Origin: Ancylomarina euxina | Lineage (GTDB): Bacteria > Bacteroidota > Bacteroidia > Bacteroidales > Marinifilaceae | DNA length: 64,000 nucleotides | NCBI RefSeq assembly: GCF_003863355.1 | Contig: NZ_QQWG01000002.1 | Location: 62,001-126,000 of the forward strand | Direction of reading: 5' to 3' | Part shown: one piece after another, positions 3,001 through 43,400 of the stretch | Layout: each line of letters starts with the position of its first letter | Position numbering within the stretch: position 1 is the first letter of the stretch | Notes under the pieces: model-generated | What the model was told of the DNA's origin: nothing | What the model saw: only the letters and a program-made list of their open reading frames with translations | The model's database searches: none | Made by a program: the position numbers and the translations under genes

Positions 3001-3378
3001 TTACAATCTTTTATATGTGCTCATTTTGTCACCATGTCCCATTTTTAAAATCATTTCACTTTCAAGTACATAATCCATTTCATGATCTTCTGAATGTTTA
3101 TGTTCGTGATTGCAGTTATCATGTGCATGTTCTTCTTGAGCATGTTTTAAAAGGATATGACCTTCTTTAAGTTCGAAAACACCTTTTTCGAGTAAGTCAT
3201 CATTCTTGTAAAACATCCATTGCATATCCTTTGTAAACTCTACAATAATTTTTACATCGGAACTTCCATTGCTTTGCCACTTTCCGGTTATCAGCTCCGA
3301 ATCTGTCTTTGTAACACAAGAACTAGCTAATATTGCAGTTACAAAGAGAACTGCTAAAACTTTAAATAATGATTTCAT
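3001..3378 (-). CDS. Small histidine-rich lipoprotein, unknown function
   Basis: The protein from the ATG at 3378 is about 125 residues: a signal peptide MKSLFKVLAVLFVTAILASSC with a lipobox Cys, then a domain containing GKWQSNGSSDVKIIVEFTKDMQWMFYKND that looks like a small lipocalin-like beta-barrel. A His/Glu/Asp-rich stretch HEHKHSEDHEMD follows two-thirds of the way through and could bind a divalent metal (inference). An upstream TTG at 3405 would add nine residues ahead of the signal peptide and was rejected. It is transcribed in the same direction as the oxidoreductase gene at 3525 but separated from it by a strong terminator, so it probably has its own promoter. No family was recognised with certainty. 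Confidence 0.7.
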   Translation of the reverse strand: MKSLFKVLAVLFVTAILASSCVTKTDSELITGKWQSNGSSDVKIIVEFTKDMQWMFYKNDDLLEKGVFELKEGHILLKHAQEEHAHDNCNHEHKHSEDHEMDYVLESEMILKMGHGDKMSTYKRL

Positions 3379-8612: not shown

Positions 8613-10382
8613 TTAATTATCGTTCATTGAGATTAAGAACTCTTCATTCGAACGAGTCTTGCGCATTCTGTCACTAATAAACTGCATAGCTTCAACAGAG
8701 TTCATGTCAGTTAAGAAGTTTCTTAATACCCAAATACGGTTCAATTGAGCTTCGTCAAGCAATAGATCTTCACGACGAGTGCTTGATGCAGTAAGATCCA
8801 CAGCAGGGTAGATACGCTTATTAGATAGTTTACGATCTAATTGAAGTTCCATATTACCTGTTCCTTTAAATTCTTCGAAGATAACCTCATCCATCTTCGA
8901 TCCAGTTTCTGTTAATGCAGTAGCTAGAATCGTTAATGAACCACCATTTTCGATATTACGAGCAGCACCAAAGAAACGCTTAGGCTTGTGAAGTGCATTT
9001 GCATCAACACCACCAGAAAGGACTTTACCTGAAGCAGGAGATACTGTATTGTAAGCACGTGCTAAACGAGTAATTGAATCCAATAGGATAACCACATCGT
9101 GTCCACACTCCACCATACGCTTCGCTTTCTCTAAAACGATATTGGCAACACGTACATGTCGCTCTGCTGGCTCATCAAATGTAGAAGAAATAACTTCTGC
9201 ATTTACAGAACGTGCCATGTCTGTAACCTCTTCAGGACGCTCATCAATCAGTAAAATGATCATATAAGCTTCAGGATTGTTTGCAGCAATAGCGTTAGCA
9301 ATTTCTTTTAACAATACAGTTTTACCTGTTTTTGGTTGTGCAACGATCAAACCACGCTGACCTTTACCAATTGGGGCAAACATATCAACAACTCGAGTTG
9401 ATAGGGTGCTCTTTCCTTTTCCTGTTAAGTTGAATTTCTCATCAGGGAAAAGTGGAGTCAAGTGATCGAATGGTACACGATCCCGAATCACTTCAGGTAA
9501 ACGGCCGTTGATCTTCTCAACTTTAATCAATGGGAAATATTTCTCGCCTTCTTTTGGAGGACGGATTGTTCCTTGTACTGTATCACCTGTTTTTAAACCA
9601 AAAAGTTTAATTTGAGATTGTGACACATAAATATCGTCAGGAGAATTCAGGTAGTTGAAGTCAGATGAACGAAGGAAACCATAACCATCTTGCATGATTT
9701 CAAGAACACCAAAGTTACTGATGATACCATCAAATTCAAATGGTCTATCTTTTTCACGACGCTCAAAACGTTTTTTGCCTTGAGGTGCTCTATCTTGATG
9801 CGTTTTTTCTTGTGGAGCTTTTTCCTGAGTATTTATTTCCTGAGGAGTTGTTTCTTTTGAAGCAACAGCTTGAGGAGCTTTGGCTTCTTCAGTCTTTGTG
9901 TCCTGAAGTATAGACTCTGACTTTACGTGCTCATTAGAAATAGCGTCTTTTTTCTGAATAGCTTCACGTTGAGGTCTGTCCGTTGGTCGAGGATCTTCGC
10001 GTCTTCTGCGAGGATTTGGTTTACGAACCTCTCTGGTTTCAATCTTTTCAGTTGGAGCTGCTGCTGCTGGAGCTTCTGCAGTCTCAATTGTTTCGGCTAC
10101 TTTTTCGTCTTCAGGCTTTTCAGTAGGTTTTCTTTTTTTGTGCAGAATTGATTTTCGAGGTTCTTCTTTGGTCACCTGATCTTCGTCTTTTCTATTGCTG
10201 CGTTTGCGTATAGCTTTTTTATCAGAACTTTTCATTTCTGAAGCTACAATGGCTTGTTGGTCAAGAATTTTGTAGATTAAGTCTTGCTTTTTAAAGGACT
10301 CGATTTTTTTGATGTTAAGTTCTTTAGCAATCTCTTTCAATTCGGGCACAAGCTTCTTGTTTAATTCAAGAATGTCGTACAT
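8613..10382 (-). CDS. rho: Transcription termination factor Rho
   Basis: Hexameric RNA helicase that ends transcription. The N-terminal helical Rho_N domain ([25 protein letters not shown]) occupies about residues 1-45. A low-complexity insert rich in Lys, Glu, Pro, Ala and Gln with repeats such as APQEK/TPQE follows to about residue 215. Then come the cold-shock RNA-binding domain ([30 protein letters not shown]) and the ATPase domain with [18 protein letters not shown] (Walker A near 350), [13 protein letters not shown] and the Q-loop region [23 protein letters not shown]. The ATG at 10382 is preferred over a TTG two codons upstream. The insert is the disordered region typical of Bacteroidota Rho, which in Bacteroides thetaiotaomicron is reported to drive phase separation. 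Identification is certain. Confidence 0.98.
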
Positions 10383-10836
10383 AAACAATATTGTTATATA
10401 TTTTGGATTTTATAATTTGATAGAAATATTATCTTCTAGGGATTTGATTTGTCGATCTCAGAATTTGGAGATCTACTGGAATTCATCTGCAATATTACAC
10501 AATAACTTATAAAATACAAAAAAAGTAAGCCATAATCTTATTATTGAGTTATCTACACTTCATTAGTCTAGATAATTTGTACCTAATTATGCTTTATTCC
10601 AATTTTAGATGGGGATATATATGTCTGTTGTTTAGGTGGTTGAGGGTTTATTTGGGAATTGTAGGTTAGCTGTAAGACATTATGGTGACTATTGATAGTC
10701 TCTAATTCTAAATTAGCTAAAAAGGTGAAAATTATAGGTTTATGATTTTGATTTTCACAATAAAATCTATTTCTTTAAGATAGAGTTTAAAATATTTGAT
10801 GTTTTTTATCAGATGACCTAAATCCCCTAATCGAAT
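10383..10836. other. Divergent intergenic region between rho and the sigma factor gene
   Basis: About 450 AT-rich bases between two divergent housekeeping genes. It must contain both promoters. I see no full TAnnTTTG match in the useful positions, only a near match (AATATTTG, about 10791-10798) some 40 bases ahead of the sigma gene. No RNA gene, long repeat or convincing small open frame was found. Confidence 0.5.
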
Positions 10837-13947: not shown

Positions 13948-14347
13948 GGGGCTGACGTGGCTTTTGACAGCATGTAGAATTGGTATGTAAGCATGTCGAG
14001 CATTGTGTATCTGGCTCGTAAATATCAGGTCTCAAACTATGTAATTGGCGAAAATAACTACGCTCTTGCTGCTTAATCGAATTACAGTAGATTTTGCTTC
14101 ATCCTTTCTCTAGGAGTCAGGACGAGACATCCCGCTTATGGTTCCACCTTGTTCCGGTAAGCTTTTGGGGTGCTATCAATTCGAGGTTAGTCGGCTTCAA
14201 GCTTTGGGGAGTCGGCAAAATTAAGAAGATAAGGTCTAGTCTCGGGTGTCCTTTCCCAAACTAGATTCGAAAATTAATAAGGGAATAAACATGTAGAAAG
14301 CTTATTGATCGCATGTTTGGACCAGGGTTCGATCCCCTGCAGCTCCA
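13948..14347 (+). ncRNA. ssrA: tmRNA (transfer-messenger RNA)
   Basis: One-piece tmRNA of about 400 nt that rescues stalled ribosomes together with SmpB. The 5' end GGGGCUG pairs with CAGCUCC at 14340-14346 to form the 7-bp acceptor stem, followed by discriminator A at 14347. The T-arm sequence GGTTCGATCCCC lies just before it. The open reading frame is visible: resume codon GGC at 14047, then GAA AAT AAC TAC GCT CTT GCT GCT TAA, giving the tag GENNYALAA, closely like the GETNYALAA I recall for Bacteroides. The bases after the discriminator are CTT, so CCA is not encoded and must be added. Pseudoknot detail was not folded. A strong terminator follows. Confidence 0.95.
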
Positions 14348-14360
14348 CTTGTATTAAATA

Positions 14361-38933: not shown

Positions 38934-39320
38934 CTAATTTTTCGCTTGATCTTTCTTCATTTCCTTCTCTGCTTCTTTCAACACTTTTTCTAAGTCGGAA
39001 ATGTCCATATCGTTTTCTTTGGCAAAAAAGCTAGCCATTTTAGGGAACGATCCGCCAAAGTAGTTTCCCAATAAAGAGGTAAACTGGAATTTGGTATACT
39101 CAGCTTTGCTTATTACAGGCGTAAATAGCTTGGAGTTTCCAATTTTACGATGCGAAACAAAACCTTTTTTCTCCAATACGATTAAAACGGTTGCAATAGT
39201 CGTATAGGCAGGTTTCGTTCCTTCAAATTCTGCAAGTATATCCTTAACAATAGCTTCGCGCAATTTCCAGATAATTTGCATGATTTGTTCTTCTGCTTTT
39301 GTCAATGATTTTAAGTCCAT
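38934..39320 (-). CDS. BlaI/MecI/CopY-family winged-helix repressor
   Basis: The start is taken as the ATG at 39320 (MDLKSLTKAEEQIMQIIWKLREAIVKDILAEF); a TTG 30 bases upstream adds a lysine-rich extension not seen in the family. The winged helix runs LTKAEEQIMQIIW...AYTTIATVLIVLEKKGFVSHRKIGNSKLFTPVISKAEY, containing the signature in which a BlaR-type protease is expected to cut between Asn and the following hydrophobic residue; the C-terminal helices dimerise. It would bind the three operators upstream and repress its own operon, which contains the M56 sensor. Bacteroidota genomes carry many such pairs; the inducing signal is usually unknown. Confidence 0.93.
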   Translation of the reverse strand: MDLKSLTKAEEQIMQIIWKLREAIVKDILAEFEGTKPAYTTIATVLIVLEKKGFVSHRKIGNSKLFTPVISKAEYTKFQFTSLLGNYFGGSFPKMASFFAKENDMDISDLEKVLKEAEKEMKKDQAKN

Positions 39321-39347
39321 AGAGTTCTTGATTATTAATTTATACTC

Positions 39348-39432
39348 CAAATGTAATCGTTTATTTTTAATTCGTACTATATTTATAGTAATTAATACTA
39401 TAAATGTAGTAATAATTACTACATCTATAGTA
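39348..39432 (-). promoter_or_regulatory. blaI promoter with three phased 16-bp operators
   Basis: TACATTTG on the minus strand (39348-39355) is an exact -7 element 28 bases before the ATG. Upstream are three near-identical palindromes: TACTATATTTATAGTA (39375-39390), TACTATAAATGTAGTA (39396-39411) and TACTACATCTATAGTA (39417-39432). They share TACTAnannTnTAGTA and begin exactly 21 bases apart. The first covers the expected -33 region, so binding should block transcription. The palindromes resemble the TACA/TGTA operators of BlaI/MecI repressors. Confidence 0.85.
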
Positions 39433-39538
39433 TGGTGATTGTTTTAAGGCCGCTAAGTGTCACGTTTGTAGGCTTTTGATCTTGTTTTTGTGATTGGTTT
39501 TTTTGTAAGTGCAAATCGTTTAATGCTTATGTCTGATT

Positions 39539-39596
39539 ACCCCAAACCCCTAAAGGGGCTTACGGCTAGAAGTTTTAAAATTCCCCTTTAGGGGTG
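39539..39596. repeat. Solo copy of the CCCCTAAAGGGG inverted-repeat element
   Basis: ACCCC plus AAACCCCTAAAGGGGCTT (39544-39561), 21 unrelated bases, then CCCCTTTAGGGG (39583-39594). The left arm is identical to that of the DUF559-carrying element at 42.6 kb and the overall structure equals its empty copies, but the inner bases differ. It lies in a 370-base gene-free stretch that also contains a small hairpin CCCCGAATTATCGGGG near 39660. Confidence 0.75.
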
Positions 39597-40318: not shown

Positions 40319-40595
40319 ATGGTTCCTGAGCGGAGTCGAAGGACAAGGGAGATAGAGAGGCTCTTTTCCTTTTCGCTCAAGCCGCTGGGCTCATACTTTT
40401 TTCTTCGATAAAAAAGTATGCAAAAAATCAAGTCAGTCTGATCCTTGTTTGCTCTTTGTGGCTAAAACGGTAGCACGCCTCACGGCAGACTGACAAAGCC
40501 CGAACAAAACCTTTTGATTTAAAAAAAAACTAACAGTTTCCCCTCCTTATTTTTGAGGAGGGGTGCCGAACTTGTTCGGTGGGGTGGTGTAAATG
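40319..40595. repeat. Block of palindromic repeat-like sequences
   Basis: No gene is seen here. The block holds TTCCTGAGCGGAGTCGAAGG (40322), an 11-bp hairpin CATACTTTTTT/AAAAAAGTATG (40392-40420), a 9-bp inverted pair GTCAGTCTG/CAGACTGAC (40432-40440 and 40486-40494), and CCCCTCCT...GAGGAGGGG followed by GCCGAACTTGTTCGGTGGGG (40541-40588). I recognise these as the kind of dispersed repeats seen in many Bacteroidota genomes, but copy number cannot be judged from one window. Confidence 0.6.
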
Positions 40596-42304: not shown

Positions 42305-42334
42305 AAAACCCAAGCCCTCCCAAGCTTGGGTTTT
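42305..42334 (+). terminator. Terminator of the two-gene unknown operon
   Basis: AAACCCAAGC and GCTTGGGTTT form a 10-bp stem around CCTCCCAA, followed by TCTCATT. The right arm and the bases after it are repeated at 42518, 43152 and 43348 as the start of each tandem unit. Confidence 0.75.
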
Positions 42335-42586
42335 CTCATTAAAAAAACGCTTACGATAGCATTTAAGGCCTAGACGTGCGTAACGTATTAACCCCAAACC
42401 CCTAAAGGGGCTTATAGGTATTGTTTGTGAAAGTCCCCTTTAGGGGATTTAGGGGTTGCGAAGCGGAACTCAACGAAGTCCATTTAGGGGTAGAGGATTG
42501 TAGCTCAATACTTAATTCAAGCTTGGGTTTTCTCATTAAAAAACGCTTACGATAGCATTTAAGGCCTAGACGTGCGTAACGTATTA

Positions 42587-43090
42587 ACCCCAAACCCCTA
42601 AAGGGGCTTCTGTTAGTCTTTTTTAGTACATTTAGTTGGGAATTGAGATAGTAATTTAAATATGGAATTATGGCCATTAGTGATCAAGTATCTATGTTTT
42701 ATAATGCAAAGCCTGATATTTTTGAGAAAGCAAAAGCTCTTAGAAAAAATATGACTTTTGCAGAACTAAAGCTTTGGGAGTTATTAAAAAACAAACAAGT
42801 TCAAGGTTTACGTTTTAGGGCACAGCATCCAATTGATATTTTTATTGCTGACTTTTATTGTCACTCATTAAAATTGGTTATTGAGCTTGATGGGGGAGTA
42901 CATCTATCCCCTGAGCAAAAAGAGTATGATATTGGAAGAGAAGCAGAAATAAGCCATTGGGGGATAAAAATAATCCGTTTTACCAATGATAAAATTGAAA
43001 AGGAAATAGATGAAGTTCTTAATACAATTAATATAATGTGTAATCACCGTAAATTGGAGATGGCAAGTTCCCTTTAGGGGATTTAGGGGT
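42587..43090 (+). mobile_element. Putative DUF559 nuclease element with terminal inverted repeats
   Basis: About 504 bp bounded by ACCCC-AAACCCCTAAAGGGGCTT on the left and its imperfect inverse AAGTTCCCTTTAGGGGATTT-AGGGGT on the right. Each arm is itself a small palindrome (CCCC-TAAA-GGGG). The only gene inside encodes a DUF559 nuclease, and its stop codon lies within the right arm. Identical ends with a short filler occur at 42391, 43221 and 39539, consistent with an occupied and several empty forms. No transposase is present. Calling it mobile is an inference. Confidence 0.5.
42670..43077 (+). CDS. DUF559 (Vsr-like PD-(D/E)XK) endonuclease domain protein
   Basis: A 135-residue protein with the whole DUF559 pattern: FYNAKPDIFEKAKALRKNMTFAELKLWELLKNKQVQGLRFRAQHPIDIFIADFYCHSLKLVIELDGGVHLSPEQKEYDIGREAEISHWGIKIIRFTNDKIEKEIDEVLNTI. 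The candidate active-site residues are the Asp in FIADFYC and the Glu-x-Asp in VIELDGG, arranged as in Vsr-type PD-(D/E)XK nucleases. Function of the family is not established. The last codons (MASSL) are encoded by the right inverted repeat and the stop TAG lies in its CCCTTTAGGGG core; the ATG is about 60 bases inside the left repeat. A weak -7-like TACATTTA is at 42627. It is intact, with no frameshift. Confidence 0.92.
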   Translation: MAISDQVSMFYNAKPDIFEKAKALRKNMTFAELKLWELLKNKQVQGLRFRAQHPIDIFIADFYCHSLKLVIELDGGVHLSPEQKEYDIGREAEISHWGIKIIRFTNDKIEKEIDEVLNTINIMCNHRKLEMASSL

Positions 43091-43400
43091 AGCGAAGCGG
43101 AACTCAACGAAGTCCATTTAGGGGTAGAGGATTGTAGCTCAATACTTAATTCAAGCTTGGGTTTTCTCATTAAAAAGCTGGGGAATGCTGCACCAAGGCT
43201 AAAAAGTGCGTAATGTATTAACCCCAAACCCCTAAAGGGGCTTATAGGTATTGTTTGTGAAAGTCCTCTTTAGGGGATTTAGGGGTTGCGAAGCGGAACT
43301 CAACGAAGTCCATTTAGGGGTAGAGGATTGTAGCTCAATACTTAATTCAAGCTTGGGTTTTCTCATTAAAAAACGCTTACGATAGCACCAAGGGTGAAAA

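Follow-up and report, generated by a model that had tools for sequence, protein, structure and literature searches.

What does a single small nuclease gene do between two palindromes that are imperfect inverted copies of one another, when the same palindromes recur nearby with no gene between them? The question is raised by the window analysed here, a stretch of 64,000 nucleotides of Ancylomarina euxina (contig C25, positions 62001-126000; the genome comprises 4.4 Mb in 77 contigs). The first-pass annotation had read this locus as a minimal mobile element whose sole protein is a Vsr-like nuclease, with no transposase. This reading is supported by the recurrence of the unit elsewhere, by a common design of the arms and by filled and empty alleles of leuS. 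We give a probability of roughly two in three to the interpretation that the locus is a transposase-free mobile element, composed of an arm, a DUF559 nuclease gene and the inverted arm, which spreads in a homing-like manner and whose gene-less derivatives are REPIN-like repeats.

The nuclease gene and its arms in Ancylomarina

The protein encoded in the window belongs to DUF559 (PF04480, E = 1.2e-32 with Pfam). As annotated, its gene lies between imperfect inverted palindromic arms and ends inside the right one, on which the sequence and the open reading frames agree (Table 1). The left arm reads ACCCC AAA CCCC TAAA GGGG CTT, with the stem facing the gene and the third block outward. The right arm contains the TAG stop codon of the gene (43075-43077) and has one mismatch in its stem; taken alone, it gave no match at ≥4 with the motif scorer described below. 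The window arms are weak examples of the triplex motif, with scores of 4.7-5.4 and the right arm of the gene unscored.

The gene-carrying unit is the middle one of three tandem units (family D4 spacing), and the outer two are empty. The units differ mainly in what the arm pair encloses, either the gene or a short spacer, of 17 nt in unit 1. Units 1 and 2 share an identical stretch of 72 nt on the left of the gene (family D3), and to its right they differ, as judged by eye, at few positions. According to the ORF list, the unit encodes no transposase. The gene-less arm pairs reported near the gene are present, and the arm core CCCCTAAAGGGG occurs eight times in the window with at most one mismatch, compared with 0.11 expected; the maximum in 100 dinucleotide shuffles of the window was two.

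Table 1. Features of the element and its surroundings, in window coordinates
Feature	Position	Strand	Remarks
DUF559/Vsr-fold nuclease gene	42670..43077	+	135 aa; ORF list and Pfam
Left arm ACCCCAAACCCCTAAAGGGGCTT	42587..42609	.	read from the sequence
Right arm AAGTTCCCTTTAGGGGATTTAGGGGT	43065..43090	.	inverted, third block outward
Gene-less (REPIN-like) arm pair	42391..42456	.	17-nt spacer
Gene-less (REPIN-like) arm pair	43221..43286	.	
Gene-less (REPIN-like) arm pair	39539..39595	.	about 2.9 kb away
Tandem unit 1, empty	42321..42517	.	terminator-like hairpin at its start
Tandem unit 2, gene-carrying	42518..43151	.	family D4 spacing
Tandem unit 3, empty	43152..43347	.	
Second arm type CCCCTCCTT..GAGGAGGGG..hairpin..GGGGTGGT	40540..40588	+	also borders the C10 copy of DUF559 in this genome

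Elsewhere in the window, A-T-rich dyad repeats (39375-39433) lie directly upstream of a gene that we take to be penicillinase-repressor-like (38934-39350), and they are probably its operator. A tmRNA gene with the tag GENNYALAA occupies positions 13948-14348.

In the whole genome, the exact core CCCCTAAAGGGG was found 10 times, as against none for the reversed control, and a longer left-arm pattern (up to three mismatches) gave nine matches on five contigs (genome G000). Gene-less arm pairs were read on contigs C47 and C36, and the match of the longer pattern on C4 held no motif at ≥4.4. PF04480 was detected in four places of this genome. The copy on C73 carries an in-frame stop (TAG) and lies between two arm pairs of the window type, one arm being degenerate. 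The copy on C10 is bordered by inverted arms of another sequence in a similar layout (CCCCTCCTTA..TAAGGAGGGG, hairpin, GGGGTGGT), and its type of stem is present in three genomic places, one of which is the second arm type of the window. No arm at a score of ≥4.4 was found for the copy on C11, where 142 nt separate the gene from the upstream end of the contig. Near the C36 arm pair (L142, 4401-4439) we also observed a second repeat type (CTTTCCCTTTTAGGGAAAG...), and arms resembling it flank the DUF559 genes of L031 and L032.

Among 58 relatives, the exact core was present in 15 of the 22 genomes with a DUF559 match versus 6 of the 36 without one (Fisher p = 1.6e-4, uncorrected for kinship). 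The annotation had considered that arms unlinked to DUF559 genes would point to a chance association. Such arms do occur in genomes with no DUF559 match, namely G016 (25 copies, on a single contig), G043 (7), G008 (6), G010 (3), G039 (2) and G014 (1), and this speaks in part for such a refutation.

Arm design and its association with DUF559 genes

The design of the arms was read from the flanks of 32 DUF559 loci, four of them from the same genome and 28 from relatives. Most of the stand-alone genes in this set are bordered by palindromes of varied sequence built on a common plan, in which a pyrimidine stem, a loop, a purine stem, a spacer and a third block follow one another, and the third block mirrors the purine stem (G opposite G; T or A opposite A). 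The flanks of L014, L033, L034 and L035, among others, do not have this plan. It corresponds to the intrastrand triplex motif of class II known from the BoxC/PIT repeats (PMC4666352).

A motif scorer of our own, shaped on these first 32 loci, was applied to 80 DUF559 loci, the best of the 569 confirmed in a genome scan. This set favours close relatives, covers several phyla and includes three genes already among the 32. At a score of ≥4.7, an arm was found upstream of 60/80 genes, downstream of 44/80 and on both sides of 37/80, compared with 21, 26 and 5 of the 688 control ORFs in those loci (6, 7 and 3 of the 197 controls of ≤200 aa). Derived from these counts, at least one side carried an arm in 67/80 DUF559 loci versus 42/688 controls. 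When intergenic DNA of the same loci was considered, for stand-alone DUF559 genes only, the density of arms was 4.17 per kb near the gene and 0.21 far off, a 19.5-fold difference.

A later sample consisted of 30 loci from 296 Bacteroidota genomes (169 over the family cut-off); these were high-scoring matches, mostly one per genome, and one of their genes is also among the 80, none among the first 32. An arm at ≥4.7 accompanied 17/18 stand-alone genes and 12/12 long-frame copies (29/30), and arms on both sides were found for 12/18 and 10/12, respectively. The idea that other DUF559 genes share flanking palindromes proved mostly right, with one design in several phyla. In a set from a plasmid collection (17 fetched of 40 matching records), an arm was detected in 15/17 at ≥4.0 and in 14/17 at ≥4.7; for L182 and L191 the scorer returned none at ≥4.0. 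Over 117 DUF559 genes, 13 had no arm at a score of ≥4.4. In L182, the plasmid DUF559 gene lies directly upstream of a BREX PglX gene, an arm-like sequence missed by the scorer is located at its stop codon, and its place beside PglX is possibly another insertion.

Small GIY-YIG genes served as a comparison. None of 14 small-frame loci, from 20 fetched after excluding six of UvrC size, had a triplex-type arm at ≥4.4. Several of these genes (among L233-L245 and L252) lie between other inverted palindromes, for example GTCATCCTGA..TTCAGGATCTC, perhaps a second pairing of a nuclease with repeats.

Where the arms on each side had a single clear orientation (29 genes), they were inverted in 27 (p = 1.6e-6), with the third block outward in 20 and inward in 7. 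For the 104 of 117 genes with an arm at ≥4.4 (the 13 arm-less genes were dropped), arm similarity correlated with protein identity (Mantel r = 0.457; largest of 2000 permutations, 0.154), and r was 0.43 once GC content was removed. Divergent DUF559 pairs of the same genome (<45% identity, n = 5) showed a mean arm similarity of 0.20, which may be compared with 0.24 for pairs of <45% identity from different genomes (n = 4016) and 0.62 for pairs of ≥60% identity from different genomes (n = 100). Because similar nucleases of different genomes have similar arms and divergent ones of the same genome do not, the arms track the nuclease rather than the host. At the level of sequence, and with host kinship partly controlled, arm sequence appears to follow the DUF559 lineage more than the host.

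Changes of place and insertions into coding genes

The region 42580..43090 (+) is 86.9% identical at the DNA level to positions 9912-10422 of an Ancylomarina salipaludis locus (L059). It was the sole long match when positions 30001-56000 of the window were compared with 20 kb around that copy; the other matches were arm copies and near flanks only. The two copies are non-syntenic and their homology stops at the arms, which bears out the view that arms and gene form a unit. Comparison of the two genes (dN 0.065, dS 0.61) indicates, for this one pair, that the protein is under purifying selection. The genus comparison was confined to the right side of the array; there, in a further relative (G004), homology begins at 43347, exactly at the array end, and no arm at ≥4.4 was found in the 3.66 kb beyond it.

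In Deinococcus, the element occupies different places of one operon. In D. proteolyticus it has hpaB on one side and an oxidoreductase gene on the other, and in Deinococcus sp. NW-56 it is found between that oxidoreductase gene and hpaE; the oxidoreductase gene and hpaE adjoin in D. proteolyticus, and each place is empty in the other species. In D. aetherius the element precedes hpaE, and a third place of insertion was not considered secure, since the separating oxidoreductase gene is absent there. Further small hairpins were seen directly outside the arms in L185, L188 and L196, and the Deinococcus element may extend past the arms. Together, these sequence comparisons indicate that the arms and the gene have relocated together as a single unit.

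The DUF559 domain was also found within coding genes, in a frame of >200 aa at 13/80 loci. At eight loci it is N-terminal to HisF, with the HisF motif in 8/8 and a Pfam assignment for L092; other hosts are HrpA (L132), HsdR (L125) and, by Pfam, HsdM (L109). A methylase (L136) and a glycoside-hydrolase-like protein (L119) were recognised by eye only. The alignment of the HrpA protein of L132 with PDB 6zwx breaks off at chain residue 241 and continues from 243, with 171 extra residues in between, and the HsdR of L125 is interrupted in like manner. In the later sample, Pfam named LeuRS (L205), MetH (L213), HsdR (L225), HsdM (L224), three DNA methylases (L203, L204, L206) and, with DUF559 placed C-terminally, a glutamine amidotransferase/PurL-like protein (L219), and the long-frame hosts of L208, L210, L212 and L216 were named by eye. 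In the LeuRS, HrpA, HsdR and MetH cases that were read, insert and host protein form one open frame; the frame of L206 looks shifted past the insert. We recognised no intron or intein in the in-frame inserts.

Restriction-modification genes are often the hosts (L109, L125, L136, L203, L204, L206, L210, L212, L216, L224 and L225), and they comprise HsdR, HsdM, and Mod-like and type IIG-like methylases. By eye, and unscored, nuclease-less arm-like peptides were noted in Mod and HsdR frames of L204, L212 and L216; the methylase frame of L204 seemingly holds two such stretches together with one DUF559 insert. In L225, a GIY-YIG domain (Pfam E = 1.3e-14) lies in frame in the same HsdR as the DUF559 insert. 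Palindromes in frame in coding genes are also known from the Rickettsia palindromic elements, which are not known to carry a nuclease gene.

Filled and empty alleles could be compared in leuS, where the insert lies between the motifs NWIGxS and FTTRxDT. Of 31 rows, 7 were filled and 24 had the native loop; for these rows, 30 of 58 matches were fetched, and several of the other 28 are also long-framed. Within one genus, LeuRS is filled in G052, G063 and G091 and empty in G115, whose LeuRS is 91% identical to that of G052 over the 135-aa query. The seven filled rows need seven changes on the LeuRS tree, forced by well-supported branches. On the DUF559 trees, which have few alignment columns and weak deep branches, the seven LeuRS inserts form one group (SH-aLRT 94), they still group when joined by two more LeuRS inserts, with one MetH insert among them (SH-aLRT 88), and the HsdR inserts of Bacteroidota and Acaryochloris, at two HsdR sites, also form one (SH-aLRT 92). 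Scattered inserts of one nuclease lineage, with seven changes for seven filled rows, are as expected of homing; loss through allele replacement could produce the same pattern as repeated gain. The trees suggest that the link of a nuclease lineage to a host gene is clearer than its link to a single site. The annotation had proposed looking for filled and empty sites with target duplications. The leuS alleles provided the former; as to the latter, the insertion replaces about 24-36 nt of the host loop, and no clear duplication was seen in the leuS sister pair G115/G091 or in the Deinococcus operons, at the few sites read.

The DUF559 gene of E. coli, ycjD, has a triplex-type motif about 175 nt past its 3' end. 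It was found at 3,371 places in 3,365 of 5,426 E. coli genomes, five of these places being on plasmids, and 2,061 of the 5,426 had no match. Because it is nearly always single, it looks like a settled gene in this species. The ycjD loci examined were L052 and L177-L179. The fabI-sapF place was rejected as a clean empty site, since it is occupied in E. coli A20, followed to sapF, by a TetR-RND-MFS efflux operon, whose first genes are also at this place in a second strain.

Other descriptions of the element were tried and set aside. A plasmid-borne nature was rejected, as only 40 of 72,556 plasmid records matched the window protein (E ≤ 1e-5), several of them chromosome-sized. A role as a defence gene was rejected because for the same protein PADLOC gave weak partial matches only (mREase_II, 4.1e-6; DpdF, 6.4e-5).

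Explanations for the pairing of nuclease and repeats

The BoxC/PIT repeats were found in the 1990s, with no function or class of neighbouring genes known for them (Holder et al. 2015, PMC4666352). The triplex motifs described in that article are intergenic, occur in more than 260 genomes and are linked to genome instability; E. coli MG1655 has five close inverted pairs, and the E. coli motif (TMECO) folds as a triplex in vitro. The arms described here share with them the pyrimidine stem, the purine stem and the third, G-rich strand of class II. They differ in that we propose DUF559 as a partner, whereas the main text of that article reports no protein partner and contains no words beginning with "duf", "nuclease" or "endonuclease". 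Arms of the window type can presumably fold in single-stranded DNA.

In the mechanism that we propose, the arms would be BoxC/PIT-type repeats foldable in single-stranded DNA, and the DUF559 nuclease would recognise its cognate arm or the unoccupied target and cut one or both strands, either at the empty target or at arms exposed as single strands. Host repair would then copy the element, or an arms-only REPIN, into the break, and the gene-less arm pairs would be small offspring moved in trans. We infer the DNA cutting, the arm recognition, the copying by repair and the movement of gene-less arms in trans, as well as the self-propagation of the element. The likeliest arrangement combines the working of a homing endonuclease with the organisation of REPIN/RAYT.

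The likeness to REPIN/RAYT had been pointed out in the annotation and is borne out by the inverted palindrome doublets, the dispersed gene-less copies and the low-copy nuclease gene beside its cognate repeat (Bertels and Rainey 2011, PMC3116915), although REPs usually number more than 100 per genome (PMC2817692) and the window-type arms are few by comparison. It also favours the explanation that a RAYT/IS200-type HUH enzyme or another transposase moves the arms in trans and that DUF559 is cargo, and the genome does hold six Y1_Tnp (RAYT-like) matches. However, none of these six loci has such an arm within 1.5 kb (≥4.0), on which ground RAYT was rejected as the partner of the arms, and the arm sequence tracks the DUF559 lineage even inside one genome. 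Moreover, the RAYT protein is an HUH Y1 tyrosine transposase (PF01797), in contrast to the Vsr/EDxHD fold of DUF559, and unlike RAYT genes some DUF559 copies lie inside the doublet and inside coding genes. We therefore consider it unlikely that the nuclease is a passenger.

Equally unlikely, in our estimation, is a homing endonuclease pure and simple, for which the arms would merely be the usual target, a terminator or a translation-neutral linker. The AlphaFold2 model of the window protein (pLDDT 83.8; conserved residues T29, E32, W36, Q52, D61, E72, D74, H78, D87 and R103) was closest in Foldseek to 3hrl (NGO0050, E = 6.6e-7), followed by 3r3p, the homing endonuclease I-Bth0305I (E = 6.5e-4), with E. 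coli Vsr lower (E = 0.2); profile searches gave 3.8e-32 for 3hrl, and 6.5e-7 and 6.1e-7 for 3r3p. I-Bth0305I, an EDxHD/Vsr-fold enzyme (PMC3943268), thus resembles DUF559 in fold and sequence and is among its nearest solved relatives, and the filled and empty alleles and the LeuRS and HsdR insert lineages, tied to a host gene, resemble those of homing endonucleases. In contrast to these, the DUF559 insert shares the open frame of its host, with no intron or intein recognised, and the unit includes inverted repeat arms. Long-frame copies keep at least one arm in 12/12 cases and both in 10/12, where a terminator would be useless; the homology of the unit stops at the arms; and gene-less arm pairs are dispersed, in addition to the nuclease-less arm-like peptides seen by eye in Mod and HsdR frames. 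These observations argue for arms that are part of the element.

A resident Vsr-like repair or restriction nuclease that processes breaks at triplex-forming repeats, with the repeats gathered near it for regulation and nothing mobile involved, seems to us clearly less probable still. In its favour, a DUF559 protein of Caulobacter (VsrA) is reported to be Vsr-like and to cause an SOS response in cells that lack a methylase (PMC12907096), and the repeats have the link to genome instability mentioned above. VsrA and NGO0050 of N. gonorrhoeae (PDB 3hrl) belong to the same family and were studied as single proteins, and the available text on VsrA describes no element around its gene (PMC12907096); a gonococcal DUF559 gene, maybe other than NGO0050, has arm motifs downstream. 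Against such a guardian of the genome stand the in-frame insertions in unrelated enzymes, the patchy filled and empty alleles, the non-syntenic unit and the different places in one operon. Finally, that G/C-rich hairpins are simply common in intergenic DNA is very improbable, even though the scorer was shaped on early examples and one arm core is short and palindromic, given the 19.5-fold excess over intergenic DNA of the same loci, the absence of such arms from the GIY-YIG (0/14) and Y1_Tnp (0/6) loci and their presence in 29/30 of the later sample. Chance was likewise rejected as the cause of the arms on the count in the window (eight versus 0.11), the enrichment of DUF559 loci over controls and the later sample.

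The transposase-free element with DUF559 as its nuclease is therefore the reading that we prefer. We rate this kind of element as new, each of its halves, DUF559 and the BoxC-type repeats, being already known; in the open-licence PMC literature, where 14 papers contain the name DUF559, no paper listed by the searches linked it to repeats in title or abstract, and a preprint or subscription report is possible. With somewhat less assurance, we also lean towards a broader proposal, in which the BoxC/PIT/triplex repeats of bacteria in general would be the termini of a large and so far unrecognised class of transposase-free elements, powered by homing-like DUF559 nucleases with their own cognate arms in each lineage; the whole element could be carried in frame through essential proteins such as LeuRS, with the gene-less repeats as non-autonomous offspring.

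The element may explain a class of bacterial DNA repeats of previously unknown origin, and a partner nuclease makes the purpose of the BoxC/PIT repeats directly testable in E. coli K-12, through ycjD. The matched lineages of arms and nucleases would offer a natural set of candidate hairpin-specific nucleases. If our reading is true, LeuRS, HrpA, MetH and several restriction-modification enzymes harbour, in frame, a mobile element that has no transposase or recombinase and no intron or intein, and this would represent a new route of persistence for DNA in dense genomes.
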